The position numbers were made by a program, and so were the translations under genes. A stretch of 64,000 nucleotides of DNA, taken from NCBI GenBank assembly GCA_902622875.1, contig CACNRW010000004.1, forward strand, positions 62,001 through 126,000, read 5' to 3'. This document shows, one piece after another, positions 1 through 15,654 of this stretch. The first letter of the stretch is position 1. Each line of letters begins with the position of its first letter. Below the pieces are notes generated by a model, which did not search any database, was not told the DNA's origin, and saw only the letters and a program-made list of their open reading frames with translations. The stretch comes from an uncultured SAR116 cluster alpha proteobacterium. GTDB lineage: Bacteria; Pseudomonadota; Alphaproteobacteria; Puniceispirillales; Marisalimonadaceae.

Positions 1-1286
1 TTTATCGTTTAAAAAACTCAAAAGCTTCCTTGGTAATTTGTGACAGAAAAGGACTTTTAAAAATTAAAAAAGTTATTGATAAATTGCCTAATTTGAAATC
101 AATAATTTGTGTGGATGAAATTGATGGAGTTAACACTCTAAGTTTTAAAAAAATATTAGAAGAATCATCTGATAATTATACTAATAAAAGTACAAAATCA
201 TTTGACCCAGCTATAATAATTTATACTTCAGGTACCACCGGTGGACCCAAAGGTGCATTACTACCGCATAGAACATTACTAGGACATATACCAGGAGTTG
301 AGATGCCACACGAATTTTTATCCTCATCAGAGCCAGTAAATGATTTATTTTGGACGCCAGCTGATTGGGCATGGATAGGAGGTTTGTTTGATGTTCTTCT
401 TCCTGCATGGCATTTTGGAATTCCTGTTGTAAGTCATAGATCACAAAAATTTGACCCTGAATTTACGTTTGATTTAATTTCTAAGCTTAATATTCAAAAT
501 ACATTTTTACCACCTACAGCACTAAAAATGATGAAGTCATTCAATCCTTCAAGTACAAAATATAAATTAAATTTAAGAACAATCGGGTCTGGAGGTGAAG
601 CATTAGGAGAAGATTTGCTAGAGTGGGGGAAAAAAATTTTAGGTGTTAATATTAATGAATTTTATGGTCAAACAGAATGTAATTTAACCATTTCAAATAG
701 CAGAGCGATAATGCCGACCAAGCAGGGTTCAATAGGTAAACCTGTTCCTGGCCACGATGTTAGGATTATGAATAAAAGAGGAGAATTTATAAAGGAGTCA
801 GGTGTAGATGGTGAAATTGTTGTTAGAAATGATACACCGGTAGCTTTTTTGAAATATTGGGAAAATGATAAGGAAACCCAAAATAAAGTTATTAACGGTT
901 GGCTTCATACAGGTGACTTTGCCTTTAGAGATGATGAGGGATATTTTTATTTTAAAGGACGTGAAGATGATATTATAAATACTTCAGGTTATCGGGTAGG
1001 CCCAAGTGAGGTGGAAGACTGTATATTATCCCATCCACATGTTGATATGGTTGCAGTCATAGGGGTGCCGGATAAAGTTAGAGGTAATATAATCAAAGCC
1101 TTTATTATTCCAAGAAATAAAAATGATATTTTAACACAAAATAAAGATCTTAAACTTAGCATCCAAAATGATGTTAAAGTAAAATTGGCAGCACACGAAT
1201 ATCCGCGTATCATAGAATTTGTAAAAGAATTACCTATGACAACAACAGGTAAAATTATTCGCAAAGATTTAAGGGAAACCATTTAA
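1..1286 (+). CDS. Acyl-CoA synthetase (AMP-forming), 5' end cut by window
   Basis: Adenylate-forming acyl-CoA ligase: activates a carboxylic acid with ATP and transfers it to CoA. The reading frame is open to the left window edge (first full codon at base 3), so about 430 C-terminal residues of an enzyme that is usually 520-560 long are present. Visible motifs are the P-loop-like YTSGTTGGPKG, the EFYGQTE block, the HTGD block, and the C-terminal PMTTTGKIIRKDLRE segment that carries the catalytic lysine. The segment around WTPADWAWIGG resembles short/medium-chain acyl-CoA and acetyl-CoA synthetase-like members, but the substrate cannot be read. It lies 140 bases upstream of the MetY-like gene on the same strand; co-transcription is possible but unproven. 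Confidence 0.9.
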   Translation, partial: YRLKNSKASLVICDRKGLLKIKKVIDKLPNLKSIICVDEIDGVNTLSFKKILEESSDNYTNKSTKSFDPAIIIYTSGTTGGPKGALLPHRTLLGHIPGVEMPHEFLSSSEPVNDLFWTPADWAWIGGLFDVLLPAWHFGIPVVSHRSQKFDPEFTFDLISKLNIQNTFLPPTALKMMKSFNPSSTKYKLNLRTIGSGGEALGEDLLEWGKKILGVNINEFYGQTECNLTISNSRAIMPTKQGSIGKPVPGHDVRIMNKRGEFIKESGVDGEIVVRNDTPVAFLKYWENDKETQNKVINGWLHTGDFAFRDDEGYFYFKGREDDIINTSGYRVGPSEVEDCILSHPHVDMVAVIGVPDKVRGNIIKAFIIPRNKNDILTQNKDLKLSIQNDVKVKLAAHEYPRIIEFVKELPMTTTGKIIRKDLRETI

Positions 1287-1426: not shown

Positions 1427-2722
1427 ATGAGCGAAAATTATAAGTTTGATACCCTTTCTTTACATGCAGGTCATATCCCTGACAAAGAAACTGGATCTCG
1501 TGCTGTTCCTATTTATCAGACTACATCATATGTTTTTAAAAGCACTGAAGAGGCAGCTTCTCTATACAATATGGAGGTTGGTGGGCATTTATATACTAGA
1601 ATTTCAAATCCTACTGTTGCAGCTCTTGAACAGAGATTAGCTGCATTAGAGGGTGGGGCTAGTGCCCTTGCATGTTCAAGTGGAATGGCAGCAATGCACT
1701 TAGTAGTTTCAGCAATATGTAGTAGTGGTGATCATATAGTAGCTTCAAGCAAAATGTATGGCGCCAATATAAATTTACTTCAGCATACTATGCCTCGTTT
1801 TGGTATAAATACGGATTTTGTAAACCCAAATGATCCAGAAGCTATTGAGAACGCTATAAAACCCAACACAAAACTAGTTTTTGGTGAAGTGATTGGAAAT
1901 CCTGGATTAGATATAATGGATGTCCCAACAATTGCAGAAATATGTAAAAGAAAAAATGTTCCTCTAGTCCTTGATGCCACTTTTAATACACCATATTTGA
2001 TGCAACCATTTAAGTATGGAGCAAATATTGTTGTTCATTCACTAACAAAATGGCTGGGTGGGCATGGCATTGCTATTGGAGGCGCCGTAGTAAATGGTGG
2101 AAACTTTGATTGGAGTGACAAAGATAAATATCCAACTATTTCGGGACCACATTTTGCCTTGGGAGGCATAAGCTTTTGGGAAGAATTTGGACCATCTGCA
2201 TTAATAGCTAAAATTAGAGCAGAAGGAATGTATAATTTTGGTCCTTCTCTTTCTCCCACAAATGCGTTCCATTTAATGCAGGGGATTGAAACATTACCTT
2301 TGAGAATGAAAAAACATATTGAAAACACTCACTCTATTCTTGATTTTCTTAGTAATCATGAATCTGTAGCTTGGGTTAAACATCCTGATTTAGATACACA
2401 TCCTGATCACGAAATAGCAAAAAAAATCTTACCTAAAGGATCTGGTTCTATAATAGTATTTGGAATTAAAGGTGGACGAAAAGCTGGGCAAGTATTTATA
2501 GAATCTGTAAAGTTAGCGTCTCATTTGGCAAATGTTGGTGATGCTAAGACACTTCTAATTCATCCAGGGAGCACAACTCATTCTCATTTAAGTTCAGAAG
2601 CTATGAAAGAAGGAGGATTAACTGACGATATGATAAGGCTTTCTGTCGGCTTGGAAGATGTTAAAGATATCAAAAAAGATTTTGAAAAGGGTTTTAAGGC
2701 TGTAAAAAAACTAAATAAATAG
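1427..2722 (+). CDS. MetY-like PLP enzyme (O-acetylhomoserine sulfhydrylase / cystathionine gamma-synthase family)
   Basis: PLP-dependent Cys/Met metabolism enzyme of 431 residues, the usual length of the O-acetylhomoserine aminocarboxypropyltransferase (MetY) branch. The PLP lysine is Lys208 in HSLTKWLGGHG, the cofactor-binding Asp lies in the VLDATFNTP block near residue 183, and the substrate-phosphate region SSGMAAMHL is near 84-92. Family enzymes replace the acyl group of O-acetylhomoserine with sulfide or methanethiol, or eliminate thiols. An AAGGAA ribosome site precedes the ATG. It heads a tight plus-strand run (8, 31, 33 and 39 bases between genes), so besides methionine synthesis it may take sulfide or methanethiol released by the neighbouring pathway. 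The MetA at 57499 carries the residue for acetyl-CoA use, which fits an O-acetylhomoserine partner. A methionine gamma-lyase role is the main alternative. Confidence 0.85.
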   Translation: MSENYKFDTLSLHAGHIPDKETGSRAVPIYQTTSYVFKSTEEAASLYNMEVGGHLYTRISNPTVAALEQRLAALEGGASALACSSGMAAMHLVVSAICSSGDHIVASSKMYGANINLLQHTMPRFGINTDFVNPNDPEAIENAIKPNTKLVFGEVIGNPGLDIMDVPTIAEICKRKNVPLVLDATFNTPYLMQPFKYGANIVVHSLTKWLGGHGIAIGGAVVNGGNFDWSDKDKYPTISGPHFALGGISFWEEFGPSALIAKIRAEGMYNFGPSLSPTNAFHLMQGIETLPLRMKKHIENTHSILDFLSNHESVAWVKHPDLDTHPDHEIAKKILPKGSGSIIVFGIKGGRKAGQVFIESVKLASHLANVGDAKTLLIHPGSTTHSHLSSEAMKEGGLTDDMIRLSVGLEDVKDIKKDFEKGFKAVKKLNK

Positions 2723-2729
2723 GTATTTT

Positions 2730-3524
2730 ATGAGAATTTATTTTAAAGGTAATGAAACATATATTGGAACTGGTGGTAGAAGTTTAGATAGTAATAAAAC
2801 TACCATTTGTTTTTTACATGGATCAGGTCAAAATCATCTAAGTTTTGTTCAACAAGCCAGATTTTTTGCTTTTAAGGGATATTCTATAATTGTTCCTGAT
2901 ATGCCAGGTCATGGGTTTTCTAAAGGAAAACCGTTAAATTCAATTAAGGATAATGCTAATTGGGTTTATGAGTTGTTAGTTGAACTGGAAGTTCAAGAAT
3001 TAGTTGTTGTAGGTCACTCACAAGGATGCTTAGTAGGTCTTGAATTAAATAGACTTTACCCAAACTTTTTAAAAGGAATAATTTTTATTGCAGGATCAAA
3101 TCAAATACCAGTTAACCAATTTTTATTAGATCTTTCAAAAGAGGATCCTCAAAAAGCTTCAAAGATGATGGTAACTTGGGGACATGGAATAGATGGTGAC
3201 ATGTCTACTAATAATTGGCCGGGTCACTCACACTATGGTGAGGGTAATAATATAATGAAAATGAATACCGCAGATGCCTTGCAACATGATTTAAATTCTA
3301 TTAACAACTATAATGGTGGGGTGGAAGCTTCAAAAAAGATTAATATACCTTCTTTAGCTGTTCTAGCTAAAAATGACCAAATGACACCGTTGAAATCAGG
3401 ATTAAAATTTGTTGATCTTCTTAAAAACTGTGAAACTCATATTCTTGATTGTGGACATTTTCTTCAATCTGAAAGACCAAAAGAGCTAAATTCAATAATA
3501 AATTCATATCTTACAAAATTATAA
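2730..3524 (+). CDS. Alpha/beta hydrolase
   Basis: Cytoplasmic alpha/beta-hydrolase fold protein of 264 residues without a signal peptide. The triad can be read: nucleophile Ser97 in GHSQGC, acid Asp216 in AKNDQMTP, and His243 in DCGHFLQSERP; the oxyanion-hole HGSG lies at 30-33. It starts 8 bases after the MetY-like gene, so the two are very likely co-transcribed and perhaps translationally coupled. Substrate is unknown; in this context ester or thioester cleavage in the same catabolic route is plausible, but that is inference from neighbours only. Confidence 0.85.
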   Translation: MRIYFKGNETYIGTGGRSLDSNKTTICFLHGSGQNHLSFVQQARFFAFKGYSIIVPDMPGHGFSKGKPLNSIKDNANWVYELLVELEVQELVVVGHSQGCLVGLELNRLYPNFLKGIIFIAGSNQIPVNQFLLDLSKEDPQKASKMMVTWGHGIDGDMSTNNWPGHSHYGEGNNIMKMNTADALQHDLNSINNYNGGVEASKKINIPSLAVLAKNDQMTPLKSGLKFVDLLKNCETHILDCGHFLQSERPKELNSIINSYLTKL

Positions 3525-3555
3525 TAATTTTAAATAGGGAGGCTTCAAAGTAATT

Positions 3556-5136
3556 ATGGGTAAACAGAATCCATTTTTATTTAAGGAAATTTCAAAAAAA
3601 GAGCATTGGAGAGTTCCTGAAATTATTTTGACTCAATGCTTGAAGCATCCTAACAGAAAAATTATAGAATTCACAGATGGTCATGAGTGGACGTTTAAAG
3701 ATTTAAAAATAAAGTCTTTGCAGAAAGCTAGAATTTTAAAAAACTTGAGCTTGAAAGCAGGAGATAATCTTACAGTTATAATTGAAGACCCTAAGGAATT
3801 TATTTTATATTGGATAGCGTCTAATTTCCTTGGAGTTATGTTTGTAGCTCTAAACACTGCGATTAAGGGTAAAGGTTTATTACATCAAATTAATACTTCA
3901 AAGTCAAAACATGTAATCGTAGATAATTTATTTTTTGATGAAGTAAATGATCTAAAAAATAATAATAAGTTAGGTGTAAATATATTAAATTGTAGTGAAT
4001 TAAAAAACAAAGAAATAATAAATGAAAATGAAGTAATATTTGGCAAGCTAAGTGATAATGTATGTACCATGTTTACCAGTGGAACATCAGGGCCATCTAA
4101 AGGTGTTATGATGCCAAATGCGCACTGCGTTTTATTTGCGATTGGAACAATTGAAAATTACGATTTAAAACACGATCATGTTTTCTATATTTCTCTTCCA
4201 TTATTTCATGCAAATGGTTTATTTATGCAGCTTTTAGCTTGTATAATTACTGGTGCTAAAGCAATAATAAGAAACAGATTTTCTGCATCTAATTGGCTAA
4301 AAGATATAAGAAAATATGACGTCACACACACAAATATGCTAGGTGCAATAGCTGCATTCGTAGTTGCTCAACCTCCATCTGGATATGATAAGGATCATAA
4401 ATTAGCTGTCATTGGATCAGCACCATTACCAAGTGAACCTGAAAGAATTTTTAGACAGAGATTTGGTGTCAAACAAGTCTTGCCACTTTATGGAATGACT
4501 GAAGTCAACATTCCTATTTATGGTTTGAAAAATGAAATTGGAAATGGAAAATGTGGAAAGGTTTACGAAAAATACTTTGAGGTTGAAATAAGAAATCCTG
4601 AAAATGATTCTAAAGTAAATGATGGTGAAGTTGGAGAGATAATGGTAAGGCCAAAGCAGCCGTTTGGTTTTATGTCTGGTTATATGGGTATGCCAGAAAA
4701 AACGATTGAGAGTTGGAGAAATTTTTGGTTCCATACTGGAGATGCAGGTATTAGAGAATTTTCTGGTCATTTTACTTTTGTAGATAGGTTAAAAGACTGT
4801 ATAAGACGTAGAGGTGAAAATATTTCTTCCTATGAAGTAGAGCAAGCTTTTTTAGAAATTCCTTATATCACTGAAGCCGCTGCTTATGCAGTTTCGGCGG
4901 ATGGTGGTGAAGGAATGGAAGATGAGGTCATGGTAGCTTTAATGGCAAACAAAGATGTTGCCATAAATTTTGTAGAATTATTAACTTTAGCAAAAAGCAA
5001 CTTAGCAAAATTTGCTATCCCTAAATATTTAAGAATTATGGAAGAATTTCCTAAAACTCAAACAGGTAAAATCCAAAAAAATAAGCTTAGAGAACAGGGC
5101 ATTACTGTTGATACTTGGCAAAACATAAATATTTAA
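3556..5136 (+). CDS. CaiC-like acyl-CoA ligase (AMP-forming)
   Basis: Full-length (526 residues) class I adenylate-forming CoA ligase. It shows the nucleotide-binding MFTSGTSGPSKG (about 172-183), the LYGMTE block, WFHTGD, the hinge/acceptor region RRRGENISSYEVE, and the C-terminal KTQTGKIQKNKLRE with the catalytic lysine. The RRGENIS form is typical of the crotonobetaine/carnitine-CoA ligase and related small-acid ligase group rather than of long-chain fatty acid ligases. GGGAGG lies upstream of the ATG as a good ribosome site. It sits in the plus-strand run between a hydrolase and a DHDPS-family lyase; the converging operon supplies a CaiB-type CoA-transferase and an enoyl-CoA hydratase, so CoA-ester chemistry on a small acid is likely. 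Confidence 0.88.
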   Translation: MGKQNPFLFKEISKKEHWRVPEIILTQCLKHPNRKIIEFTDGHEWTFKDLKIKSLQKARILKNLSLKAGDNLTVIIEDPKEFILYWIASNFLGVMFVALNTAIKGKGLLHQINTSKSKHVIVDNLFFDEVNDLKNNNKLGVNILNCSELKNKEIINENEVIFGKLSDNVCTMFTSGTSGPSKGVMMPNAHCVLFAIGTIENYDLKHDHVFYISLPLFHANGLFMQLLACIITGAKAIIRNRFSASNWLKDIRKYDVTHTNMLGAIAAFVVAQPPSGYDKDHKLAVIGSAPLPSEPERIFRQRFGVKQVLPLYGMTEVNIPIYGLKNEIGNGKCGKVYEKYFEVEIRNPENDSKVNDGEVGEIMVRPKQPFGFMSGYMGMPEKTIESWRNFWFHTGDAGIREFSGHFTFVDRLKDCIRRRGENISSYEVEQAFLEIPYITEAAAYAVSADGGEGMEDEVMVALMANKDVAINFVELLTLAKSNLAKFAIPKYLRIMEEFPKTQTGKIQKNKLREQGITVDTWQNINI

Positions 5137-5169
5137 TTATCATCTAATTTCGTATTAAAGGGAATCAAA

Positions 5170-6087
5170 ATGGCTAATGATGATTTTAAGGGTTGCTGGC
5201 CTGTAGCTCCAACTCCTTTCAAACCTAATGGTGAAATTGATAAAGAGGGTATGAAAAGGGTCATTGACTGTATGGTTGATCAACAGGTTGACGGTATTTG
5301 TATATTGGCAAATTATTCTGAGCAATTTTTATTGTCTGATGAAGAAAGAGAAATTTTGACAAGGCTATGTATAGAGCATGTAGGTGGCAGGGTTCCAGTT
5401 ATTACAACAGTAAGTCATTTTTCTACTGATATAGCTTTTTCAAGAGCTAAATTAGTAAAAGAACTTGGTGGTGAAATGCTCATGATGATGCCACCCTATC
5501 ATGGGGTTTTAATGAAAGGTTCTCCTCAGCAAACATTTGAACAATTTGCTAAAGTTGGTGAAGTAGGTGTCACTATTATGGTGCAAGATGCACCATTATC
5601 CGGAATAGATTTACCTGTGCCTCTTTTAATAAAGATGGCCAAAGAAATTGAAATGGTGAAATGTTTTAAAATTGAGTGTGCTCAAGCAGCTGCAAAATTA
5701 AGAGTTCTTGTAAATGAAGGTGGAGATTTTATAGAAGGACCTTTTGATGGAGAAGAAGGTATAACATTATTTGCTGATTTAGAAGCTGGAGCAACTGGAA
5801 ATATGAGTTCAGCAATGATACCAGACTTAATAAGGCCAATAGTTTTAGATTATCTTGGAGGAAACACTCAAAAATCTGAAAATCAATATAATCATATATT
5901 ACCATTAATTAATTATGAAAATAGACAATGTGGCTTCAGAGCTACAAAGGTTGTTATGAAAGAAGGCGGTGTAATAAATTCTGATTTTTGTAGACATCCT
6001 ATTCCGGATTTAGAAGAAAACACAAAAAAAGGTTTGATAAACTTAGTTAAAAATTACAATCCAATTGTGTTACAATGGGGTAAATAA
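5170..6087 (+). CDS. DHDPS-family aldolase/lyase with divergent active site
   Basis: A 305-residue (beta/alpha)8 protein of the dihydrodipicolinate synthase / N-acetylneuraminate lyase superfamily. The Schiff-base lysine fits Lys167 (in CFKIEC) and the catalytic tyrosine Tyr110 (in MMPPYH). Where true DapA proteins carry the Gly-Thr-Thr-Gly-Glu substrate loop, this one reads LANYSEQFLLSDEER near 46-60. It is therefore unlikely to be lysine-pathway DapA and more likely a 2-oxo-acid aldolase or dehydratase. The family usually yields or consumes pyruvate through a lysine imine. It lies in the plus-strand run just before the cupin gene, so a product of one may feed the other (inference). Confidence 0.85.
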   Translation: MANDDFKGCWPVAPTPFKPNGEIDKEGMKRVIDCMVDQQVDGICILANYSEQFLLSDEEREILTRLCIEHVGGRVPVITTVSHFSTDIAFSRAKLVKELGGEMLMMMPPYHGVLMKGSPQQTFEQFAKVGEVGVTIMVQDAPLSGIDLPVPLLIKMAKEIEMVKCFKIECAQAAAKLRVLVNEGGDFIEGPFDGEEGITLFADLEAGATGNMSSAMIPDLIRPIVLDYLGGNTQKSENQYNHILPLINYENRQCGFRATKVVMKEGGVINSDFCRHPIPDLEENTKKGLINLVKNYNPIVLQWGK

Positions 6088-6126
6088 TGATAAAACTTAT
6101 AATTTTATTTTTAGTTGGAGGGATAG

Positions 6127-6636
6127 ATGCCTTACACTCTGAATGATTTAATTGTTGATATAAAAGAAATACTTGTCAATGACCAAATTCAAAATGGCTC
6201 AGATAAAATTTGTTACTTTGTTTCAAAAGCCTTAATGGATCAAAACTTTGTAGCAGAGAACCTTCCTGATCGATTAAATGGTGAATCTCCTAGACAGATA
6301 CTTTATGAAGACAAGGATACAGGATTTTGTGTTTGCGGCCACGTATATGATACCGAGGCTTTAGGAACTCCTCATGATCATGGACCAAGTTGGGCAATTT
6401 ACGGGCAAGCATCTGGTGAAACAGAAATGACAGAATGGGAGATTACTAATGATACATCTTCAGATGATATCATTTATGTTAAACCAAAAAAAACTTATAC
6501 TATGAAAGCGGGTGATGTTCATTTTTATGATATTGGCCATGTCCACTCGCCTGTAAGGAAAGATCCTGTAAGATTGCTTAGAATAGAAGGTGAAAATTTA
6601 GATAATGTTAAAAGATCGAACATAAAAGTATCTTGA
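6127..6636 (+). CDS. Cysteine-dioxygenase-like cupin (putative metal-dependent oxygenase)
   Basis: A 169-residue protein with a cupin-type block: GHVYDTEALGTPHDHGPSW holds a His-x-His pair (PHDHG), followed by a Gly-rich turn and a later KAGDVHFYDIGHVHSP segment with further histidines. This matches the double-stranded beta-helix metal site of the thiol dioxygenase / COG5553 group. Family members oxidise thiols such as cysteine or 3-mercaptopropionate to sulfinates using iron and O2. A strong GGAGGG lies just before the chosen ATG. It ends the plus-strand run. The assignment to thiol oxidation is supported by the nearby rhodanese and TauE-type exporter but is not proven; another small metal-cupin activity is possible. 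Confidence 0.7.
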   Translation: MPYTLNDLIVDIKEILVNDQIQNGSDKICYFVSKALMDQNFVAENLPDRLNGESPRQILYEDKDTGFCVCGHVYDTEALGTPHDHGPSWAIYGQASGETEMTEWEITNDTSSDDIIYVKPKKTYTMKAGDVHFYDIGHVHSPVRKDPVRLLRIEGENLDNVKRSNIKVS

Positions 6637-6662
6637 GACAGAACAAAATTTTCGCAATAATT

Positions 6663-7424
6663 TTATTTATTTTTAACTTGAGTATCTATAAATTCTCTAA
6701 TTCTTTTAACTAAGCCTGGTTTTGATGCAGATCTAACTAATGCTGCAAGATCATTGTTTAAATCTTTATCATCTAAAGTCTCTGACATTAATTTAGATTT
6801 CGATTCATAATTGAGTTTAAAGGCTTCTAAGCTTATTTCTTTAATCTTTGATTTCCAATTATCTGCTTCACAAATACTTGTTAAAAAGCCACTTTTAAGG
6901 GCTTCATCTGAATTAAAAATTCGAGACGATTCAAGAAAATTTATAGCATTTTTTCTTCCAACCAATCTAGACAACCTTCTTGTACCAAGTACTATTCCGA
7001 ACTGTAGTCCCGGCATACGAAAAGTTGTTTCTGGTGAAGCAACCCTGTGTTGACATGCAGAAACAATATCTGCGCCAGCACCAAAACACTTGCCATGAAC
7101 AAGAGCTAGGCTACTAATTGGTAATTTATAAATCATTTGAAGTAATTCTTCAATTTTAACAAAACGATAAAGAAGGTCTGCATCACTTTCATTTTGGAGA
7201 TTACTTAAGTCAAAGCCAGAAGAAAAAGCTCGTCCTTCACCGCTAAAAATTAATAGTTTAATTTTTTTTTGGAGCGCTTCGTTTATACCATCAGTCATAA
7301 TTTGAATCATTTGAGAGTTTAAGGCGTTGAGACGAGAAGGATTATTTAAACGGAGCCAAGTAATATTCTCTTGATGTTCAATTATAATTGGAGTTGATTT
7401 TGTATTCATAACTAATTTAACCAT
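6663..7424 (-). CDS. Enoyl-CoA hydratase/isomerase family protein
   Basis: Crotonase-fold protein of about 253 residues. The two oxyanion-hole regions are visible: GRAFSSGFDLSNL in the first half and HGKCFGAGADIVSA in the second. Crotonases hydrate, isomerise or cleave acyl-CoA esters. The glutamates typical of authentic enoyl-CoA hydratase are not evident from the motifs, so the exact reaction is open. The listed start overlaps the upstream CoA-transferase stop by a few bases; a second ATG five codons later (7409) would give a short gap and is equally possible. It is the last gene of a minus-strand unit with the CoA-transferase and the rhodanese. Confidence 0.85.
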   Translation of the reverse strand: MVKLVMNTKSTPIIIEHQENITWLRLNNPSRLNALNSQMIQIMTDGINEALQKKIKLLIFSGEGRAFSSGFDLSNLQNESDADLLYRFVKIEELLQMIYKLPISSLALVHGKCFGAGADIVSACQHRVASPETTFRMPGLQFGIVLGTRRLSRLVGRKNAINFLESSRIFNSDEALKSGFLTSICEADNWKSKIKEISLEAFKLNYESKSKLMSETLDDKDLNNDLAALVRSASKPGLVKRIREFIDTQVKNK

Positions 7425-8587
7425 TCACAAATTACTTCCTCATTATGTTCACCAAGTTCTGGAGGCATTTTTAAATCTTTTGTTTCAACGCCCTCAATTG
7501 AAATAGGAAAAGCAACACTGTATGTGTGGGAGCCATTTGGTAAAGTAACAGGTTTTACTATTTCCATATGTTTTATGTGTTTGTCTTTTAATATAGTTTC
7601 AAAATTATTAATAGGCGCACAAGGAACTTTTCTTTTGTCCATTTCTCTCAACCAATGTTTCACATTATGTTTAATAAACATTTTAGTAAGTATTTTTGAC
7701 AACTCATCTTGATTTTTAGCTCGATCAGATTGTGTTTTAAAACGGGTGTCATTCTTAAGATGTTCCATTTCAACAGCTTCGCAAACTTCAAACCAAAGCT
7801 TATCGTTTCCTGCTGCAATTACAAAAAAAGCGTCAGACGCTTTAAATGCTTGATATGGAGCATTTCTAGAGTGAGCAGACCCAAGCTTTTCTGGTGCTTT
7901 ATTATTTCCAAAATATTCACTTGTTTGAAGAGCAGATATTCCTAAAAGGCTGCCAATCATAGAGCAATCTATGTGTACTCCTTCACCACTTTGTTCAACT
8001 CTTCTAAGCATAGCCATAATAGTATAACTAGCATACAAACCCGTACAAAAATCACCTATCGGAACTCCGCATTTAACTGGAGAAGTATCTTTTTCTCCAG
8101 TAACGCTCATTATTCCAGATATAGCCTGAACGGTTACATCAAAAGCCCCTTTATCAGAATAAGGACCTGTCTGACCATAACCAGAAATAGAACAATATAT
8201 TAACTTTTTGTTAATTTTTCTTAAATCGTCATAACCAAGGCCAAGTTTTTTCAAAACACCTGGACGATAGTTTTCAATTAATATTGTTGCTTTGGAAATA
8301 AGTCTTTTTAGTAGACTTACATCAGAAGGATCTTTGATATTAAGAGCCACGCTCCTTTTATTACGGTTAACTGATGCAAAGTTTTCACTATAAGCTTCAT
8401 TGTTTTTTTGTTGAGAAATATTTAATGGAGGCCATTGTCTCATTCCATCACCTCCTTTTGGGTTTTCAATTTTTATAACATCTGCGCCAAGATCTGCTAA
8501 TAATGAAGAGGCAAAAGGACCTGCTGCAATTTGACCAAGTTCTACTACTCGAATACCTGATAAAGGTTTTCCATTATCTTTAAACAT
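7412..8587 (-). CDS. CaiB/BaiF family CoA-transferase
   Basis: Class III CoA-transferase of 391 residues, normal length for the family. It begins with the typical GIRVVELGQIAAGPFASSLL, followed by ADLGADVIKIENPKGGD, and has the catalytic aspartate at Asp179 in GVPIGDFCTGLYA. The family moves CoA between carboxylic acids through an aspartyl-CoA anhydride. It sits between the rhodanese gene (2 bases apart) and the crotonase (overlapping). Together with the CaiC-like ligase facing it, this suggests that the pathway substrate and product are exchanged as CoA esters. It may act on the same acid as the ligase, saving ATP once the route is running (inference). Confidence 0.9.
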   Translation of the reverse strand: MFKDNGKPLSGIRVVELGQIAAGPFASSLLADLGADVIKIENPKGGDGMRQWPPLNISQQKNNEAYSENFASVNRNKRSVALNIKDPSDVSLLKRLISKATILIENYRPGVLKKLGLGYDDLRKINKKLIYCSISGYGQTGPYSDKGAFDVTVQAISGIMSVTGEKDTSPVKCGVPIGDFCTGLYASYTIMAMLRRVEQSGEGVHIDCSMIGSLLGISALQTSEYFGNNKAPEKLGSAHSRNAPYQAFKASDAFFVIAAGNDKLWFEVCEAVEMEHLKNDTRFKTQSDRAKNQDELSKILTKMFIKHNVKHWLREMDKRKVPCAPINNFETILKDKHIKHMEIVKPVTLPNGSHTYSVAFPISIEGVETKDLKMPPELGEHNEEVICEWLN

Positions 8588-8589
8588 TC

Positions 8590-10173
8590 TCAGCTTTCAG
8601 CATTTATATTTCCAATTTTAAAAAAATTAATTTCTTGTTTATCCATTTTGTCTAACAGATCTATTTCCCATTTCAAATATTGCCTGGCGTGATCTTTATT
8701 CCCCTTATGACGCATGTAGGTATGAAAGTTAAAGTCTATAAACTTTTTGTCTAATTCAATTACGTTTTGATCTAAACATTCAGGATATTTAAAAATTTCT
8801 TCCTTATTCCAATGGTATGCTTTGATTTGAATTTTTGGAAATATCTCTTTTAGATCCTTAATAATCAGACTTACCTTATTTATGTCATCGAAAACTATAA
8901 TTATATTTTTAATCAATTTAGATGTATTTTGTTTAAGAGCTGATCTATTTAACCAGATAGAATTCTTCAGCCTTGATTTACAATAATCAATACTTTTACG
9001 GATATCAAAAATAATAGTTGTATCTGATGCTTTTATATCATTCAAACTTATATGAGAAACTGATATATTCTTGAATTTAATGTGGCTTTTGATCTTTAAT
9101 GTATTTATTTCTGTTTCTGTCCCTTTAAAAACATAACACTCAAAATTCATTTTTTTAAGCCAAAGTGCTGTTGTTCCGGCTCTCACAAGATCGCCCTCAT
9201 CAAAAAGTATTATCCGTGACTTTAGTACTCCAACATAACTATCTGTAGCTTGAACCAGTTGACCCCCAGGGACATTTCTTATTCCTGGAAGAGATTTTTC
9301 AGGAGATAAATTAGTTTTCACGTTGAAAATATAAGTAGATCTTGTTTCATCCTCTATTAAATCTTGAGCTTCTGGTAAATCGATAACTTTTATATGATTT
9401 TTATCTAACAAATTTGAAATTTCACTTTTTAGCTTTTCTTTTTCGTTTTCTTTAGGCGAAATGTCGAGAAAATTTGTTTTGTTATTATCCAATTTTAAGT
9501 TAGATAAAACCCAACCCTGTGTTCCATTTTCTAAGGCGTAGACTTTATTTTTTATACCAAAATTTATTAACGTTTGGGCCCCAATAATTGATCTTGTTCT
9601 GCCTGCACAATTTATAATTATGTTAGTCTTTGAATTTTTGATTATTGATGAAATTTTGTACGGTATTTCGGCATTAGGGCAACAAATACTTTCTGGAATA
9701 CTCATTTTTTTATACTCTTCAAATGGTCGCCCATCTAATATGATTATATCTTCTTTTTTTTTCTGTTTTTGGAATAATTCTTTGGGGGAAATTGAAGGTG
9801 TGCGATACTTGTGTTCAACTAATTCACCAAAACTTTTACTAGGTACATTAATGCCATCAAATAATTTGAACTTGGCTCCCAACCAACCTTTAACACCTTC
9901 TTTTAAAATTAAAATTTTAGAATAGCCTAAAGCCTTTGCTTGTTTGTAGGCTAACTCGGATATTCCATTGTTATCATCAAATAATACAACCCGAACATTT
10001 TTATTTGGGAGAAGTGTTTCTATGTTGATTTCAAAAGTACTAAATGGAATTGAAATAGAAAAAAAAGGATGACCTTTAGTATGTTGGCTAATTTCTCTCA
10101 CATCAATAAACGCAATCTCGTTATCATCCGAAATCCAAGACTTAACTGTTTTTGCGTCTACAGTATTATCCAT
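8590..10173 (-). CDS. Four-domain rhodanese-like protein
   Basis: A 527-residue protein made of four consecutive rhodanese-like segments, roughly 5-105, 125-230, 245-360 and 375-465, each with a beta-strand/loop of the type IIxxD. Only the second has a catalytic cysteine, Cys189 in INCAGRTRS; the matching loops of domains 1, 3 and 4 read LFDDNNG, LFDEGD and VFDDINK and are presumably structural. Rhodaneses transfer sulfane sulfur from thiosulfate or persulfides to an acceptor. No signal peptide is present. It is the first gene of the minus-strand unit, divergent from the TPP enzyme across an 87-base gap with a palindrome. Multi-domain rhodaneses beside thiol-dioxygenase-like cupins point to thiol or persulfide metabolism. 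Confidence 0.85.
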   Translation of the reverse strand: MDNTVDAKTVKSWISDDNEIAFIDVREISQHTKGHPFFSISIPFSTFEINIETLLPNKNVRVVLFDDNNGISELAYKQAKALGYSKILILKEGVKGWLGAKFKLFDGINVPSKSFGELVEHKYRTPSISPKELFQKQKKKEDIIILDGRPFEEYKKMSIPESICCPNAEIPYKISSIIKNSKTNIIINCAGRTRSIIGAQTLINFGIKNKVYALENGTQGWVLSNLKLDNNKTNFLDISPKENEKEKLKSEISNLLDKNHIKVIDLPEAQDLIEDETRSTYIFNVKTNLSPEKSLPGIRNVPGGQLVQATDSYVGVLKSRIILFDEGDLVRAGTTALWLKKMNFECYVFKGTETEINTLKIKSHIKFKNISVSHISLNDIKASDTTIIFDIRKSIDYCKSRLKNSIWLNRSALKQNTSKLIKNIIIVFDDINKVSLIIKDLKEIFPKIQIKAYHWNKEEIFKYPECLDQNVIELDKKFIDFNFHTYMRHKGNKDHARQYLKWEIDLLDKMDKQEINFFKIGNINAES

Positions 10174-10222
10174 TTTAATAACTCAATCATTAGTTTAATC
10201 TTAACAATATTAAAAATTAATA

Positions 10223-10242
10223 TAAGATTTTTAACATGTTAA
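10223..10242. promoter_or_regulatory. Operator-like palindrome between divergent rhodanese and TPP-enzyme genes
   Basis: The 87-base divergent gap contains a perfect 12-base palindrome, TTAACATGTTAA, at 10231-10242, about 20 bases before the TPP-enzyme ATG. A second, spaced inverted repeat, AATCTTA at 10197-10203 and TAAGATT at 10223-10229, lies just left of it. Such sites in a divergent gap are typical of a regulator that controls both directions. No regulator gene is visible in the island, so the protein would be encoded elsewhere. Confidence 0.4.
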
Positions 10243-10260
10243 GTCAAAAGGGGTGGAATT

Positions 10261-11913
10261 ATGAAAGAATATAATGTGGGAGACATAGTTTCAGAATTTT
10301 TATATCAGATAGGTGTGAAAGATGTTTTTGGTGTGGTTTCAGTCCATAACATACCTATGCTAGATGCTATTGGTAGAAGAAACTATATACAAATGATACC
10401 TGCAAGAGGTGAAATGGGCGCAGGTCATATGGCAGATGGTTATGCAAGAGCTACAAATGGTCTTGGAGTTGTCTTTACTAGTACTGGACCTGGGGCAGCA
10501 AATATAGCAGGAGCTTTAGTTGAGTCTCGATTTGCTGGTTCAGCAGTACTTCATTTTACTGGTCAAACAGCAACAGAAAATTTAGATAAAAACCAAGGAA
10601 CAGTTCACGATGTTCCTGATCAGTTGGGTATGTTGAAATCTATTTCTAAGAAAGCAATTAGAATAAGCAAACCAGAAGACGTTATCACAAAATTAATGGA
10701 AGCAACTACTGCTGCTCTTACTCCTCCAATGGGACCTGTGTCTGTCGAAATACCAATAGATATTCAAAGAACTATTATTGAAAGGCCATCAGAATTAGAT
10801 CAAATTAAATCGCCAAGCATAAATTTACAAATAGGTGATATTTCATCTTTAGATAAGATAGAGGACATAGTAAAAAAATCTAAAAGAAAAATACTTTGGG
10901 TAGGTAATGGGGCAAAATTTGCAAAAGATGAAGTAGAAAAATTTATTGATATTGGCTTTGCACTTGTTACTAGTACATTAGGAAGAGGTGTTGTTCCTGA
11001 AAGTAATAAAATGAGTATGGGTGCTTTTAATGCTGTACCTCTAATAGAAGATTTTTATAAAACACTTGATTTAATGATAGTTGTTGGAAGTAGATTAAGA
11101 GGACACGAAACTAGAGATATGTCTTTAAAACTTCCGGACAATATTATTCAAATTGACATTGATCCTGATGCAGAAAATAGAACATACAAAACTAACCTTT
11201 TTCATTGTGGTGACGCAAAAATGGTTTTGGGAGAACTTGCTAATAGACTATCAAACACTATCCTTGTCGATGATGACTGGATAAATGAAGTTTCAGAACT
11301 TAAAAATAAAATTTTTGAATCTTATAAAAATAATCTTGGTGCTTACAAGGACTTTCCGGAAATTATAAGAAGAGTACTTCCTGAAAATGGAAGATGGGTC
11401 AGAGACGTAACAATTTCTAATAGTATGTGGGGCAATCGTTCTATGCAAATTAATAAACCTGAACAAAATATTTATCCAGTTGGGGCTGCAATTGGTCCTG
11501 GAATGGCTCTTGCTATTGGAGCGTCTGTTGGGATCAAAGGAGAAAAAACCATTGCTATGTGCGGTGATGGAGGTTTTATGTTGAACCTTCCTGATTTGTG
11601 GACAGCTGCTGAAACTAATTGTGATGTAGTTTTTCTAGTTATGAACGATCAGGGATATGGTGTTATAAAACATATTCAAGAAAGCATGTATGGCGGAAGA
11701 AAATTTTATGCGGATTTGATAGGTCCAAATTTTGAAGATTTAGCCAAAGTTGCAAAAATGAAATATAAGAGAATTGATAATGCTAATGAATTAGAAAAAA
11801 AATTGGATGAAGCTGTGAAATTTACAGGTCCTGTTTTGGTAGAAGTAAATGTTCAATCCGTAGGAGAAATGCCTCGTTACTTTGCTCCACCTCCTCATGC
11901 TTTAAAGGATTGA
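10261..11913 (+). CDS. Thiamine-pyrophosphate-dependent enzyme (acetolactate-synthase-like large subunit)
   Basis: TPP enzyme of 550 residues with the usual three-domain order. The N-terminal pyrimidine-binding domain carries the cofactor-activating glutamate Glu51 in ARGEMGAGHMADGYA; the C-terminal pyrophosphate domain has the GDG motif at 435-437 and the paired Asn in NDQGYG near 464. The family decarboxylates 2-oxo acids and may transfer the resulting activated aldehyde. It lacks the start expected for sulfoacetaldehyde acetyltransferase (Xsc) and there is no adjacent regulatory IlvH, so biosynthetic acetolactate synthase is unlikely. A good GGGGTGG ribosome site precedes the ATG. It is directly followed, 1 base later, by a TauE-type exporter, implying one transcript. 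Confidence 0.82.
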   Translation: MKEYNVGDIVSEFLYQIGVKDVFGVVSVHNIPMLDAIGRRNYIQMIPARGEMGAGHMADGYARATNGLGVVFTSTGPGAANIAGALVESRFAGSAVLHFTGQTATENLDKNQGTVHDVPDQLGMLKSISKKAIRISKPEDVITKLMEATTAALTPPMGPVSVEIPIDIQRTIIERPSELDQIKSPSINLQIGDISSLDKIEDIVKKSKRKILWVGNGAKFAKDEVEKFIDIGFALVTSTLGRGVVPESNKMSMGAFNAVPLIEDFYKTLDLMIVVGSRLRGHETRDMSLKLPDNIIQIDIDPDAENRTYKTNLFHCGDAKMVLGELANRLSNTILVDDDWINEVSELKNKIFESYKNNLGAYKDFPEIIRRVLPENGRWVRDVTISNSMWGNRSMQINKPEQNIYPVGAAIGPGMALAIGASVGIKGEKTIAMCGDGGFMLNLPDLWTAAETNCDVVFLVMNDQGYGVIKHIQESMYGGRKFYADLIGPNFEDLAKVAKMKYKRIDNANELEKKLDEAVKFTGPVLVEVNVQSVGEMPRYFAPPPHALKD

Positions 11914-11914
11914 A

Positions 11915-12673
11915 ATGTTTGAAATGCCAGGAGAACTTTCAGAGTTCACAATATACTTCTTAATATTTGCGAGTATGGTGACCTCTTTTATAAGTTCTGC
12001 TTTTGGAATTGGTGGTGGAGCCATCCTAATAGGTTTGTTAGCCATTAAACTCCCGCCTTTTGCTTTGTTACCAATACACGGTATTGTTCAAATAGGATCT
12101 AATTTCGGTCGAACCCTTATATTTCTAAAAGATGTAAAGAGGGACGTGTTAGTTCCTTTTAGCATCGGAACTGTTCTAGGATCTTTTATTGGTGGAACAT
12201 TCTTTGTACAAATAGAGCCTTGGTTACTTCAATTAATTGTTGCTTTATTTATTCTTTGGTCTGTTTTTGGGAAAATCCCAGCTATTGGTTCAACCCACGT
12301 AGTTTTTGGTGGAATGTTTTCTGGCTTTTTTACAATGTTTTTTGGAGCTTCAGGAACTTTAGTAGCAGGCATGGTAAAGACTATGAAATTAGAGCCAGTA
12401 AAACATACAGCTACTCACTCAGCGTTAATGACGATTCAACATTTTATAAAGGTAGTAATATTTGGCTTTGTAGGTTTTGTTTATGCCGATTATGTTCTGC
12501 TAATTACTGCAATGATTGTAAGTGGTTTTATAGGAACAGTAATTGGTAAAAAAATTTTAGTAAAATTTGGTAAAAAATATTTTAAATTAGTACTAAATAT
12601 TATCCTGACTTTAATAGCATTTAACCTTATATGGAGTGCAATAAAAATGAGTGGTTATTTTACAAATATTTAA
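11915..12673 (+). CDS. TauE/SafE family anion exporter
   Basis: Integral membrane protein of 252 residues with about eight hydrophobic segments arranged as two related halves, and the typical ISSAFGIGGGAILIGLL start and FFGASGTLVAG in the second half. TauE/SafE proteins are thought to export sulfite, sulfoacetate or related organosulfur anions. The gene starts 1 base after the TPP enzyme, so the pair is co-transcribed. Export of a toxic by-product such as sulfite made by the neighbouring enzymes is the natural reading. The 3' end overlaps that of tctA by four bases on the other strand. Confidence 0.85.
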   Translation: MFEMPGELSEFTIYFLIFASMVTSFISSAFGIGGGAILIGLLAIKLPPFALLPIHGIVQIGSNFGRTLIFLKDVKRDVLVPFSIGTVLGSFIGGTFFVQIEPWLLQLIVALFILWSVFGKIPAIGSTHVVFGGMFSGFFTMFFGASGTLVAGMVKTMKLEPVKHTATHSALMTIQHFIKVVIFGFVGFVYADYVLLITAMIVSGFIGTVIGKKILVKFGKKYFKLVLNIILTLIAFNLIWSAIKMSGYFTNI

Positions 12674-14154
12674 TCTTTTTGCTTTGTTATCCATGAAAAA
12701 ATCACTGGTCCACATAAACCTAGAAATGCAAAAATTAGAAACATAAGTGCTAGAGGTTGGGTAAGGATCAACCACCACTGACCATCAAACATTTTTAAAG
12801 AATGTTGTAGGTTAGTTTCCACCATTTCTCCTAATATTAAACCAACGGCAATTGGAGCAACCGAGAAACCATGTCTTCTTGCAAAAAAACCAATTACACC
12901 AAAAATCAAAGCTAACCATACATCTAAAAGTTGTCCTTGGAAAGCATAGGCACCAATGACCGATAATGCAAAAACTATTGGCCATAGAATTTGGGTAGGC
13001 ACTAAGGATACCCTTGCAAACAATTTAGCTGCATATAGTCCCATCAGCATAAACATTACGTTTGCTACAAACATAGATCCAAAAATTTGATAGACCTTTT
13101 CAACTTGTTCAGTAAACAAATAAACACCTGGTCTAAGCCCATGAACCATTAGACCAACTAGAATTATTGCGGTTGTACCACTACCGGGTATTCCTAGTAC
13201 CATTGTTGGCACCATTGCGCCCCCAGTTGCAGCATTATTAGCGGCTTCAGCACCAGCTATACCTTCAATTGAACCTTTACCAAATTCTTTTTTATTCTTA
13301 GACCATCGCCTGGCTTCAGAATAACCAATCATTGATGCTACAGTTGCACCTTCAGCAGGCAAAACACCTATAAATGTTCCAATTCCACAGGACCTCAAGA
13401 TAGTTTTCCAAATCTTTTTATAATCCTCTTTTGTTGGGAGTTTTACAGCTTTCATACTCACTGTTTTAATAATTTTATCAACTGTTTTTGATTGGACTAA
13501 AAGTTCAGAGATAGCAAAAAGACCAATAAATATTGGAACAAAATGAAGACCTTCATACAATTCATAATTCCCAAACATAAATCTTTCAATTCCAGTTACA
13601 CGTTCAGCGCCTATAGTAGAAAGCCAAACTCCAAAAATCCCACCGATTAGATTTTTAACAGCACCTCCTGCACTAATACTGGCTAACATGGATAACCCAA
13701 AAACTGTTAGTGCAAAATATTCTGGGGATCTAAACTCGTAAGCAACCCTAGCCAATAAAGGCGCGGCAAAACATAGTATTAGAACGGAAAAGATACCTCC
13801 AACAGTACTTGATATCACCGCAATACCTAGAGCTCGGCCAGCTTCGCCTTTTTGTGCAAGAGGATATCCGTCGAAGGTAGTGGCTGCCGCAGCTGAGGTA
13901 CCAGGGGTATTTATTAAAATCGCGGTTATTGAACCAGCAAATGTAGCAGAAACATATATCGTAGCAAGAACTGCAATTGCATGGACTGGGTCCATTGTAA
14001 GAGTAAACGGCAATAGTAAAGCAGCACCTGTAGTTGCTCCCAACCCTGGTAGGACACCTATTATAACACCTAGAACTGTGGTAGCAAAAATTAATCCTAA
14101 TAAGTAGGGGTCAACCATAACTGACGCCATTGCAGATATTGCCTGTTCAAACAT
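12670..14154 (-). CDS. tctA: Tripartite tricarboxylate transporter, large permease TctA
   Basis: Large permease of the tripartite tricarboxylate transporter family, 494 residues and about 12 hydrophobic segments. The signature GVLPGLGATTGAALLLPFT occurs near the N-terminus, and PGTSAAAATTFDGYPLA soon after. Together with TctB and the periplasmic TctC it drives secondary uptake of organic acids. Gene order on the minus strand is tctC-tctB-tctA with 9 bases between tctB and tctA. The substrate is not readable; its location next to the catabolic island suggests it may bring in the island's substrate. Confidence 0.93.
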   Translation of the reverse strand: MFEQAISAMASVMVDPYLLGLIFATTVLGVIIGVLPGLGATTGAALLLPFTLTMDPVHAIAVLATIYVSATFAGSITAILINTPGTSAAAATTFDGYPLAQKGEAGRALGIAVISSTVGGIFSVLILCFAAPLLARVAYEFRSPEYFALTVFGLSMLASISAGGAVKNLIGGIFGVWLSTIGAERVTGIERFMFGNYELYEGLHFVPIFIGLFAISELLVQSKTVDKIIKTVSMKAVKLPTKEDYKKIWKTILRSCGIGTFIGVLPAEGATVASMIGYSEARRWSKNKKEFGKGSIEGIAGAEAANNAATGGAMVPTMVLGIPGSGTTAIILVGLMVHGLRPGVYLFTEQVEKVYQIFGSMFVANVMFMLMGLYAAKLFARVSLVPTQILWPIVFALSVIGAYAFQGQLLDVWLALIFGVIGFFARRHGFSVAPIAVGLILGEMVETNLQHSLKMFDGQWWLILTQPLALMFLIFAFLGLCGPVIFSWITKQKD

Positions 14155-14163
14155 TAGAATATC

Positions 14164-14625
14164 CTAACCATAATAAAGATTCATAAGAATACCTCGTGGG
14201 AACCTTATTTTAAGTACAAAGTCAAATAATAAAAAAACTAAACCTGGTGTAACCGTGGCAGTTAAAAATGCAACCCATAACCTTTTTTCTCCCCACAAAA
14301 TACTCATTAAAAAAATTACAACAAAAATCCCTATAAACATATCTGTGTATACGGTCAACAAATAAAAGAGCAGAAATAATAACATACTTCCCCAAGTATG
14401 ATATTTTTCCAATGATACAGCTTTAGGTTTATTCTTATAAAATTGATAAGTTAGAATTCCAAGTAAAAACAATTTCAAAATCATTAAAAAAATTGGAAAA
14501 GATCTAGCTTGCATACTGTCACCTACAATCATTTCAGGAGATGTATCAAGCTGAAGAGAAATTGCTATAACTGACAATGAAAAAATTGCCAGTATTAATG
14601 GAATTAGATAAATTTTATTTTTCAT
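14164..14625 (-). CDS. tctB: Tripartite tricarboxylate transporter, small permease TctB
   Basis: Small membrane subunit of about 154 residues with four hydrophobic segments, the normal TctB size and topology. I place the start at the ATG at 14625 (MKNKIYLIPL). The longer frame beginning with TTG at 14649 starts inside a strong hairpin and adds an unlikely MRGLCLKY lead. TctB sequences are poorly conserved, so the call rests on size, hydrophobicity and position between tctC and tctA. Its translation may be lower than that of tctC because of the intervening hairpin. Confidence 0.85.
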   Translation of the reverse strand: MKNKIYLIPLILAIFSLSVIAISLQLDTSPEMIVGDSMQARSFPIFLMILKLFLLGILTYQFYKNKPKAVSLEKYHTWGSMLLFLLFYLLTVYTDMFIGIFVVIFLMSILWGEKRLWVAFLTATVTPGLVFLLFDFVLKIRFPRGILMNLYYG

Positions 14626-14636
14626 ATATTTCAAAC

Positions 14637-14664
14637 AAAGACCTCTCAAATTTGAGAGGTCTTT
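14637..14664 (-). terminator. Perfect inverted repeat between tctC and tctB (intercistronic hairpin/attenuator)
   Basis: Arms AAAGACCTCTCAAA (14637-14650) and TTTGAGAGGTCTTT (14651-14664) form an uninterrupted 28-base palindrome starting 12 bases after the tctC stop. In the minus-strand transcript it would form a strong hairpin followed only by a broken U-run, so partial termination or 3'-end protection of the tctC message is likely. This would give the usual excess of binding protein over permease. Confidence 0.75.
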
Positions 14665-14676
14665 TATCTTCTTTAA

Positions 14677-15654
14677 TTATTTCAATAAGCCCATTTCTTT
14701 AAGAGCAGGACCAAATTCACCTACCATAAATGCAATTTGCTTTCCCCAAGGACCAGATGGTTGTGGAGACGTACTGTCTAAACCAGAATTTTCGAGATAA
14801 GCTTGGTACATTGAATGTTTCATAGCTTTTTGAATCCCTTTTTCCATGTCAGCAACTCTTGCTTTATCAACACCAGCATGAGTTACAAAGCCTCTAGTAG
14901 TTGAAAGAACAAGATCAATACCCATTGACTTAGCTGTCTTAGCCTTAGGTATTGGCGCCATTCCATTTTCAGCTAAAATGACAAGTGGGCAAATGTCTCC
15001 AGCTTCGACTGGTGCCGCGGCTTCTGACAAGTTAAGTGTTCCTACATCGACTTCTCCTGCAACTAGTCTAGTAGCTAGTTCACCTCCACCTTTATATGGT
15101 ATGTATTTAGGCATTTTTTGACCAAGTCTCTTTGCCCAAAGAAAAACAGTTATATGGTCAATAGTACCAGTATGAGTGCCGCCAAAAGTTATCTTGTCAC
15201 CCTTTTTCATTCCAGCCACAAAATCTTCCGGTGTTTTGTAAGGGCTTTTTTTACAATTAACCATTAATATTTGAGGATCGTTTGTTCCTCGAGAGATTGG
15301 CGCCATATCTTCAACTTTTAGCTTTGTTTTACCCATAGCCATAGTAATTGCATGACCAACAGTAAAAGTTAATATAGTATTTCCATCGGCAGGCCTTGTC
15401 ATAAAATAATTCATTGCTGCGGCACCACCGCCACCTCTCTTATTTACAACTACCATGTCTTGTTTCAATGTCCTTCTGGAACGAAGCATCATCATTCTTG
15501 AGTTGACGTCAGTACCACCACCTGCTCCTGCGTGCGTCACAACTTCAATCGCAGGTTTTTTAGCGGCTAAAGTTGGAGCAGTTGTAAAGGCTATAGCAGA
15601 TACTATAGCAGCTATACCAGTACCAACCTTAAATAGTGTAGTAGATTTAATCAT
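14677..15654 (-). CDS. tctC: Tripartite tricarboxylate transporter substrate-binding protein TctC
   Basis: Periplasmic solute-binding protein of the Bug/TctC family, 325 residues. It has a clear signal peptide with a hydrophobic stretch at about 10-28 and a likely cleavage after the Ala-Ala at 30-31. The typical early motif VVTHAGAGGGTDVNSRMM lies around 38-55, and the ligand-loop block KRGGGGAAAMNYF near 67-80. GGAGG lies seven bases before the ATG, a strong site fitting high expression. A set of three palindromes lies upstream and a strong hairpin follows the stop. Ligand probably a small carboxylate, not identifiable from sequence. Confidence 0.92.
   Translation of the reverse strand: MIKSTTLFKVGTGIAAIVSAIAFTTAPTLAAKKPAIEVVTHAGAGGGTDVNSRMMMLRSRRTLKQDMVVVNKRGGGGAAAMNYFMTRPADGNTILTFTVGHAITMAMGKTKLKVEDMAPISRGTNDPQILMVNCKKSPYKTPEDFVAGMKKGDKITFGGTHTGTIDHITVFLWAKRLGQKMPKYIPYKGGGELATRLVAGEVDVGTLNLSEAAAPVEAGDICPLVILAENGMAPIPKAKTAKSMGIDLVLSTTRGFVTHAGVDKARVADMEKGIQKAMKHSMYQAYLENSGLDSTSPQPSGPWGKQIAFMVGEFGPALKEMGLLK

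Follow-up and report, generated by a model that had tools for sequence, protein, structure and literature searches.

A 64,000-nucleotide stretch of contig C4 of an uncultured SAR116 alphaproteobacterium (the window; host genome 1.96 Mb in 76 contigs, estimated 81% complete) carries at positions 1427-15654 an island of 13 genes, as counted in the open reading frame (ORF) listing, most of which recur in the same order across the SAR116 family. The sulfur character of the island is real and is centred on a divergent cupin and a multi-domain rhodanese, and the island is assembled from at least three units. We read it tentatively, with somewhat less than even confidence, as a family-wide system through which a small carboxylated organosulfur compound is put to use, organothiol oxidation being combined with sulfur salvage. 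Under this reading the tripartite tricarboxylate transporter TctABC would import the compound; the cupin, given the fold of its structural model, would convert a thiol or persulfide by oxidation into a sulfinate, from which sulfite would arise; the rhodanese, to judge from its single conserved cysteine and recurrent pairing with the cupin, would deliver sulfane sulfur to this oxidation or take it away; MetY, next to a partner hydrolase and in a family searched in vain for sulfite reductase, would take sulfide-level sulfur into homocysteine; TauE would export sulfite to the periplasm, where Sox proteins encoded elsewhere in the genome could oxidise it; and the coenzyme A (CoA) ligases, the DHDPS-like enzyme and the thiamine pyrophosphate (TPP)-dependent enzyme would process the carbon skeleton, with no order implied.

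Eleven genes form the core of the island (MetY, alpha/beta hydrolase, CoA ligase, DHDPS-like protein, cupin, rhodanese, TPP enzyme, TauE, TctA, TctB and TctC), and their order is common to 34 of the 41 family loci, defined by a cupin identity of at least 64% with L121 and L122, two loci from metagenome-assembled genomes (MAGs) titled Rhodobacteraceae, excluded. The remaining seven loci are interrupted by contig ends; the genes that they hold keep the same order, and in one of them (L099) a piece of the rhodanese lies at the contig end on the other strand. The clustering is beyond chance because this order is kept across four genera, and the preliminary description, which had proposed nine gene families of the island as a single pathway and looked to conservation of the neighbourhood outside this genome, is borne out in that respect throughout the family. 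The acyl/acetyl-CoA synthetase beside MetY (1-1286, plus strand; about 550 aa in all, with its start at G000:C4:61631, some 370 bases outside the window) is the conserved first gene in most loci that reach that far. At the level of genomes, the cupin was detected in 67 of the 136 genomes of the order at E<=1e-10, and in 45 of the 58 genomes of the family (family counts were tallied from the order-wide tables), including all six of at least 90% completeness. Among 337 genomes of the class, 11 besides our own encode the TPP enzyme (E<=1e-130) as well as the cupin (E<=1e-20); the two lay within 20 kb of each other in none of these 11, and in nine they were on different contigs, where a contig break is possible.

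The cupin (6127-6636, plus strand) had no match in Pfam at E<=0.001 and none in NCBIfam, a sequence search of the PDB was empty, and its relatives had to be found with profile and fold searches, single-sequence search being insufficient. The canonical dioxygenase-family proteins of Variovorax and Aminobacter plasmids likewise have no NCBIfam match (E<=1e-10), so NCBIfam is not a discriminating test of thiol-dioxygenase membership. An AlphaFold2 model of the cupin (mean pLDDT 94) has the thiol-dioxygenase fold: among the best 50 of 1860 Foldseek matches, 48 are titled thiol dioxygenase or plant cysteine oxidase (PCO) and two are Bacillus subtilis YubC, presumably the same protein as the one titled 4QM9. 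Mercaptosuccinate dioxygenase 8VNI is first among the Foldseek matches listed (TM 0.77 by query length, 17% identity) and is also the best profile match, albeit a weak one (E 0.006), while the profile match to the Azotobacter 3-mercaptopropionate dioxygenase (3MDO) 6XB9 was not significant (E 1.2, level with unrelated proteins). Profile-profile comparison with the Variovorax and Aminobacter proteins, whose profile held two rows, gave E 1.4e-6 and a probability of 90.5. The earlier label of cysteine dioxygenase (CDO)-like cupin therefore holds for the modelled fold, although no family model in Pfam or NCBIfam recognises the protein.

The active site shows the same division. H83, H85 and H140 are invariant in all 11 cupins aligned and stand opposite the histidines of the Variovorax and Aminobacter proteins, and they are predicted to be the three-histidine iron-ligand set of thiol dioxygenases. 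These histidines and a Ser-His-Tyr motif are described as common to the structurally characterised thiol dioxygenases (PMC8050391). In the profile-profile alignment, R152 and E154 of the cupin (R152-x-E154) lie opposite the His and Tyr, so that the active site has kept the histidines but has Arg-x-Glu in place of the His and Tyr. On this basis the cupin plausibly acts like a thiol dioxygenase, and we stop short of assigning it to that family. The wider cupin family was sampled in part by pattern: one scan gave 543 pattern matches, of which 511 encoded cupin relatives and 80 were kept, and because these 80 loci were gathered with the patterns PHDHG[PS]SW and RIEG..., any count of the motif that draws on them is tilted in its favour. 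A search of plasmids yielded three weak Pseudoalteromonas records. The family has been duplicated in G433, a genome of the class, where five matches, including two tandem pairs, were found on contig C1 (G433:C1, near 895166, 1711125 and 2706659).

The rhodanese (8590-10173, minus strand) was assigned by Pfam and by its PDB match to 1YT8 (E 5.5e-76, co-linear over residues 17-420 of 527), which we take to be PA2603, a protein of four domains. The four domains of the preliminary description rest on this homology, whereas Pfam scores two stretches only. C189, in the loop CAGRTRS that 1YT8 also has, is the sole cysteine kept in all 14 aligned sequences, the window included, and for this reason probably one rhodanese domain is catalytic. 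Beyond the family, counting also the rest of its order, 21 of 72 rows have a rhodanese within 3 kb of the cupin (one genome is counted twice among the 21, and some rows are the same place reached twice, such as L076 and L224), which upholds the earlier grouping of the two beyond SAR116. On a tree of 82 rows, from which near-identical SAR116 rows had been removed and which carries a long-branch warning, the pairing requires eight changes, at least four of which well-supported branches make unavoidable, while shuffled labels require 25.6; the row of the window itself was labelled by hand as rhodanese-paired, its fetched flank being too short. The relative orientation of the two genes varies among loci. 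In the Rhodobacteraceae-titled MAGs (L121 and L122; cupin 68-69%, rhodanese 55% identity) the pair occurs without the rest of the island, and it can therefore stand alone.

Other settings of the pair were seen in passing. In Filomicrobium MED665 (L139, 7457-15712) a TPP enzyme, an MDMPI-domain protein, the cupin, the rhodanese, an enolase-superfamily enzyme and a class III CoA-transferase lie together, the TPP enzyme differing from that of the island (28% identity), which gives the appearance of an independent link between these families. In four Hyphomicrobiales MAGs (L141, L145, L146 and L153) the cupin and rhodanese stand beside a peptide-type ABC transporter, a 2-hydroxyacid dehydrogenase, an M17 aminopeptidase and an NlpC/P60 protein, the neighbours being named by Pfam in L141 and by similarity clusters in the other three. 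The rhodanese frame is broken into two overlapping pieces at L082 (8097-9732; genome G013), with intact copies in neighbouring loci.

MetY (1427-2722, plus strand), of the O-acetylhomoserine sulfhydrylase type, scored above the cut-off of TIGR01326 (561.8 versus 495.1 bits) and barely above that of NF006004 (636.8 versus 636), and has at residues 205-208 the motif SLTK, which presumably contains the pyridoxal phosphate lysine. Some MetY match was present in all 61 genomes searched, with near orthologues of about 61-72% identity in other families of the order. The adjoining alpha/beta hydrolase (2730-3524, plus strand; Pfam, GHSQG motif) was missing from the preliminary description, which also began its list at MetY and not at the CoA synthetase that precedes it; the ORF positions and family calls that it did give proved correct. 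The hydrolase has a weak match to MetX (E 3.2e-4), and could be the missing homoserine acyltransferase; the TIGR01392 cut-off was reached by none of 49 genomes and none of 14 controls. Relatives of the hydrolase beside MetY, at loci L182-L189, likewise give weak MetX matches in several genomes (e.g. G051 and G066, E about 1e-8).

On the carbon side, the ATP-dependent acyl-CoA ligase (3556-5136, plus strand) has NF004808 as its best NCBIfam model, below that model's cut-off. The DHDPS superfamily protein (5170-6087, plus strand; Pfam, FKIE motif at residues 166-169) has as nearest solved structure L-2-keto-3-deoxyarabonate dehydratase (7C0C, 3FKK), matched over its full length at 315.5 bits. 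Its neighbours here include neither a sugar-acid dehydratase nor a semialdehyde dehydrogenase, in contrast to the two plasmid contexts inspected, those of Ruegeria and Phaeobacter. The TPP enzyme (10261-11913, plus strand) far exceeds the cut-off of the equivalog NF005470 (PRK07064; 710.8 versus 495), which carries no function, and lies one base from the predicted TauE/SafE family exporter (11915-12673, plus strand; PF01925, 80.4 bits versus a cut-off of 32.6); of the claim that these two are joined in an operon, the one-base gap was found and co-transcription is predicted from it. No clear connection to sulfur emerged from three plasmid contexts of TPP-enzyme relatives or from that of one CoA-ligase relative.

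Downstream lie TctA (12670-14154), the large permease, TctB (14164-14649), the small permease, and TctC (14677-15654), the periplasmic receptor, all on the minus strand and named by Pfam. The transporter seems to have been swapped in place in the window (12670-15654) relative to loci L082 and L083: compared neighbouring genes are 92-97% identical in DNA to those loci, while TctA is 78-79%, TctB 67-68% and TctC 82% identical, and the TctABC genes of the window are 97-99% identical to those of L070 and L084. The divergence of TctABC between near-identical neighbours suggests recombination confined to the transporter. Between cupin and rhodanese, the window also has a crotonase superfamily gene (6663-7424, minus strand; Pfam) and a class III CoA-transferase (7412-8587, minus strand; Pfam and NCBIfam). 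This pair occurs in seven of the 41 loci, the rhodanese elsewhere following directly after the cupin, and it is an addition in one subclade; its earlier inclusion in the functional set is not sustained. At the other end, a gene of 1152 aa, large and divergent, stands immediately ahead of the window (L089, 3-1571, minus strand), head to head with the CoA synthetase; from reading of its sequence alone it resembles indolepyruvate ferredoxin oxidoreductase.

Several observations weigh against an island devoted to one organosulfur pathway. MetY and the hydrolase are adjacent without the island in all eight loci retrieved in other families belonging to the order (one of which has a weak CoA-ligase match, 25% identity), and strong MetX (TIGR01392) matches were found in four of 49 genomes, our own not among them, so that the supply of acyl-homoserine for MetY is unproven. 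Two plasmid relatives of the DHDPS-like protein (61-63% identity; Ruegeria and Phaeobacter) sit in sugar-acid operons. In 51 of the 72 rows outside the family there was no rhodanese within 3 kb of the cupin, many of the flanks reaching 1.5 kb only. The Ser-His-Tyr motif is absent from the cupin, Arg-x-Glu being present in 111 of 113 members (one of 114 rows, with too short a matched stretch, was dropped before the count). Outside the family, the presence of the cupin does not follow the absence of sulfite reductase, further sulfite oxidation genes (apr/sat) are reported in some SAR116 (PMC8547437), and in Pseudomonas protegens deletion of tst, the sulfurtransferase gene beside its thiol dioxygenase, made no significant change in 3-mercaptopropionate (PMC12947264).

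One alternative, which we consider almost as likely as the island reading, is a composite neighbourhood in which an old homocysteine-synthesis pair (MetY and hydrolase), the cupin and rhodanese, and an unrelated organic-acid unit (Tct, the TPP enzyme, the CoA ligases and the DHDPS-like protein) are co-inherited and do not form one pathway. The eight loci in which MetY and the hydrolase occur by themselves point to an older unit that the island joined, and the description of the nine families as one pathway is on that account only partly right. The cupin and rhodanese, too, are found without the rest in the two Rhodobacteraceae-titled MAGs, in Hyphomicrobiales and in others, no TauE match (E<=1e-6) was present near any of 12 TPP-enzyme relatives outside the order (about 9 kb inspected on each side, one shorter), and the closeness of the DHDPS-like protein to L-2-keto-3-deoxyarabonate dehydratase would suit an organic-acid unit; these findings, with the restriction of the CoA-transferase and crotonase to seven loci, count against the single pathway as first drawn. 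Against a mere composite stand the five plus-strand genes from MetY to the cupin, which run in the same direction with gaps of 7, 31, 33 and 39 bases, and the order kept over four genera even though identity has fallen to 44-60% in the rhodanese, the hydrolase and the CoA ligase, a distance at which reshuffling would be expected.

A second alternative, which we consider unlikely but of some weight, is that the cupin is a metal-binding non-oxygenase (an isomerase, lyase or sensor) that has retained the CDO fold, its pairing with the rhodanese reflecting sulfur signalling or the thiolation of tRNA or a cofactor. The nearly uniform Arg-x-Glu in place of His-x-Tyr, the lack of a Pfam family above its cut-off and the many rows without a rhodanese neighbour would fit such a protein. 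They are countered by the three-histidine set within a thiol-dioxygenase fold, by its recurrence beside rhodaneses of the kind seen with canonical dioxygenases, and by the statement in PMC8050391 that the Ser-His-Tyr motif speeds the reaction yet is not required.

In Xsc-TauE sulfonate units a TPP enzyme adjoins TauE, an adjacency that the island shares, although its TPP enzyme falls in another equivalog and no Pta or sulfonate genes were found among the genes scanned. A sulfonate pathway, in which the TPP enzyme would act like sulfoacetaldehyde acetyltransferase (Xsc) or sulfopyruvate decarboxylase and TauE would export the resulting sulfite, draws on that one-base spacing and on a Cupriavidus necator TauE titled a sulfite exporter in C2-sulfonate metabolism (a reference title in PMC5373536), but is very improbable in view of the score against NF005470, the absence of an Xsc model from the 25 of 53 NCBIfam matches of the TPP enzyme that were listed, and the absence of a sulfonate-cleaving enzyme from the genes scanned.

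The sulfur metabolism of the lineage gives the island reading its context. A sulfite reductase domain was found in none of the 58 family genomes, including none of the six of at least 90% completeness; matches within the order (24 of its 136 genomes) are confined to other families. SAR116 isolates have been described as incomplete in assimilatory sulfate reduction and probably reliant on reduced sulfur (PMC3368413). A restriction of the cupin to genomes without sulfite reductase was considered and dropped, as genomes G129, G131 and G133 hold both and G105 holds the cupin with a partial reductase. PF01507, above its cut-off in 20 of 49 genomes but not in our own, was not used as a test, since we take it to cover several enzymes (CysH, CysD and others). 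The Sox genes were reached through PF00174, which exceeds its cut-off in 44 of 49 genomes: the host genome encodes in a row SoxZ, SoxC and SoxB above their cut-offs and a SoxY-like protein below its cut-off, an unassigned gene separating SoxC from SoxB. The sulfite export by TauE proposed in the preliminary description would gain meaning from these genes, as the SoxY-, SoxZ-, SoxC- and SoxB-like proteins could accept exported sulfite. A soxCDBYZ set without soxAX, which may act on sulfite or on sulfane sulfur, has been described for two SAR116 subclades, II and III (PMC12262181). The words dioxygenase and rhodanese do not occur in the main text of PMC8547437 or PMC12262181, and our literature search found no published account of the island.

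Although no pathway with this exact set was known to the preliminary description, and none has emerged since, a cluster of the same logic is described in PMC5373536, where the mercaptosuccinate dioxygenase (Msdo) of Advenella and Variovorax shares a gene cluster with cystathionine beta-lyase and rhodanese, and in Advenella also with a LysR regulator and an amino-acid (PAAT) ABC transporter. The Msdo cluster (Variovorax paradoxus B4, Advenella mimigardefordensis) shares with the island a dioxygenase of the same fold, a Cys/Met PLP (pyridoxal phosphate) enzyme, a rhodanese and an adjoining transporter. The SAR116 island, by comparison, has MetY and not cystathionine beta-lyase, TctABC and not an ABC transporter, an added TauE, a cupin without Ser-His-Tyr, and no LysR among ORFs of at least 120 aa at 1427-15654. 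Among the plasmids, those of Variovorax and Aminobacter carry a dioxygenase-family gene, metC and a rhodanese with an amino-acid and a branched-chain-type ABC transporter, respectively, and a Marinobacter plasmid carries the rhodanese without an annotated dioxygenase nearby. In P. protegens, 3mdo and tst, a PA2603 homologue, appear to be one transcription unit (PMC12947264). This pseudomonad unit (3mdo-tst, PA2602-PA2603) likewise sets a thiol-dioxygenase-fold protein beside a sulfurtransferase annotated as thiosulfate sulfurtransferase; it has a canonical 3-mercaptopropionate dioxygenase, whereas the SAR116 cupin belongs to a distant subfamily and lies on the strand opposite the rhodanese. 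By analogy, the SAR116 set resembles the Msdo and 3MDO-rhodanese clusters in its logic, in a divergent form.

SAR116 bacteria are abundant at the ocean surface (PMC8547437), and the island may assist cells without sulfite reductase in using organic sulfur. If the island reading is right, it identifies a concrete means by which SAR116 draws sulfur from an organic compound, and it may also supply the Sox genes that are without SoxAX. A bolder proposal, which we regard as doubtful, is that the Arg-x-Glu cupins are a new and widespread group of proteobacterial thiol or persulfide dioxygenases that form with the rhodanese a unit converting sulfane sulfur to sulfite, joined in SAR116 to MetY for assimilation and to TauE, which would feed a Sox system without SoxAX. 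If true, it would give SAR116 a combined route of organosulfur salvage and oxidation in place of sulfate assimilation. The cupins themselves are a large uncharacterised family with an active site unlike that of the canonical thiol dioxygenases used for comparison, and in which the need for Ser-His-Tyr is directly testable.

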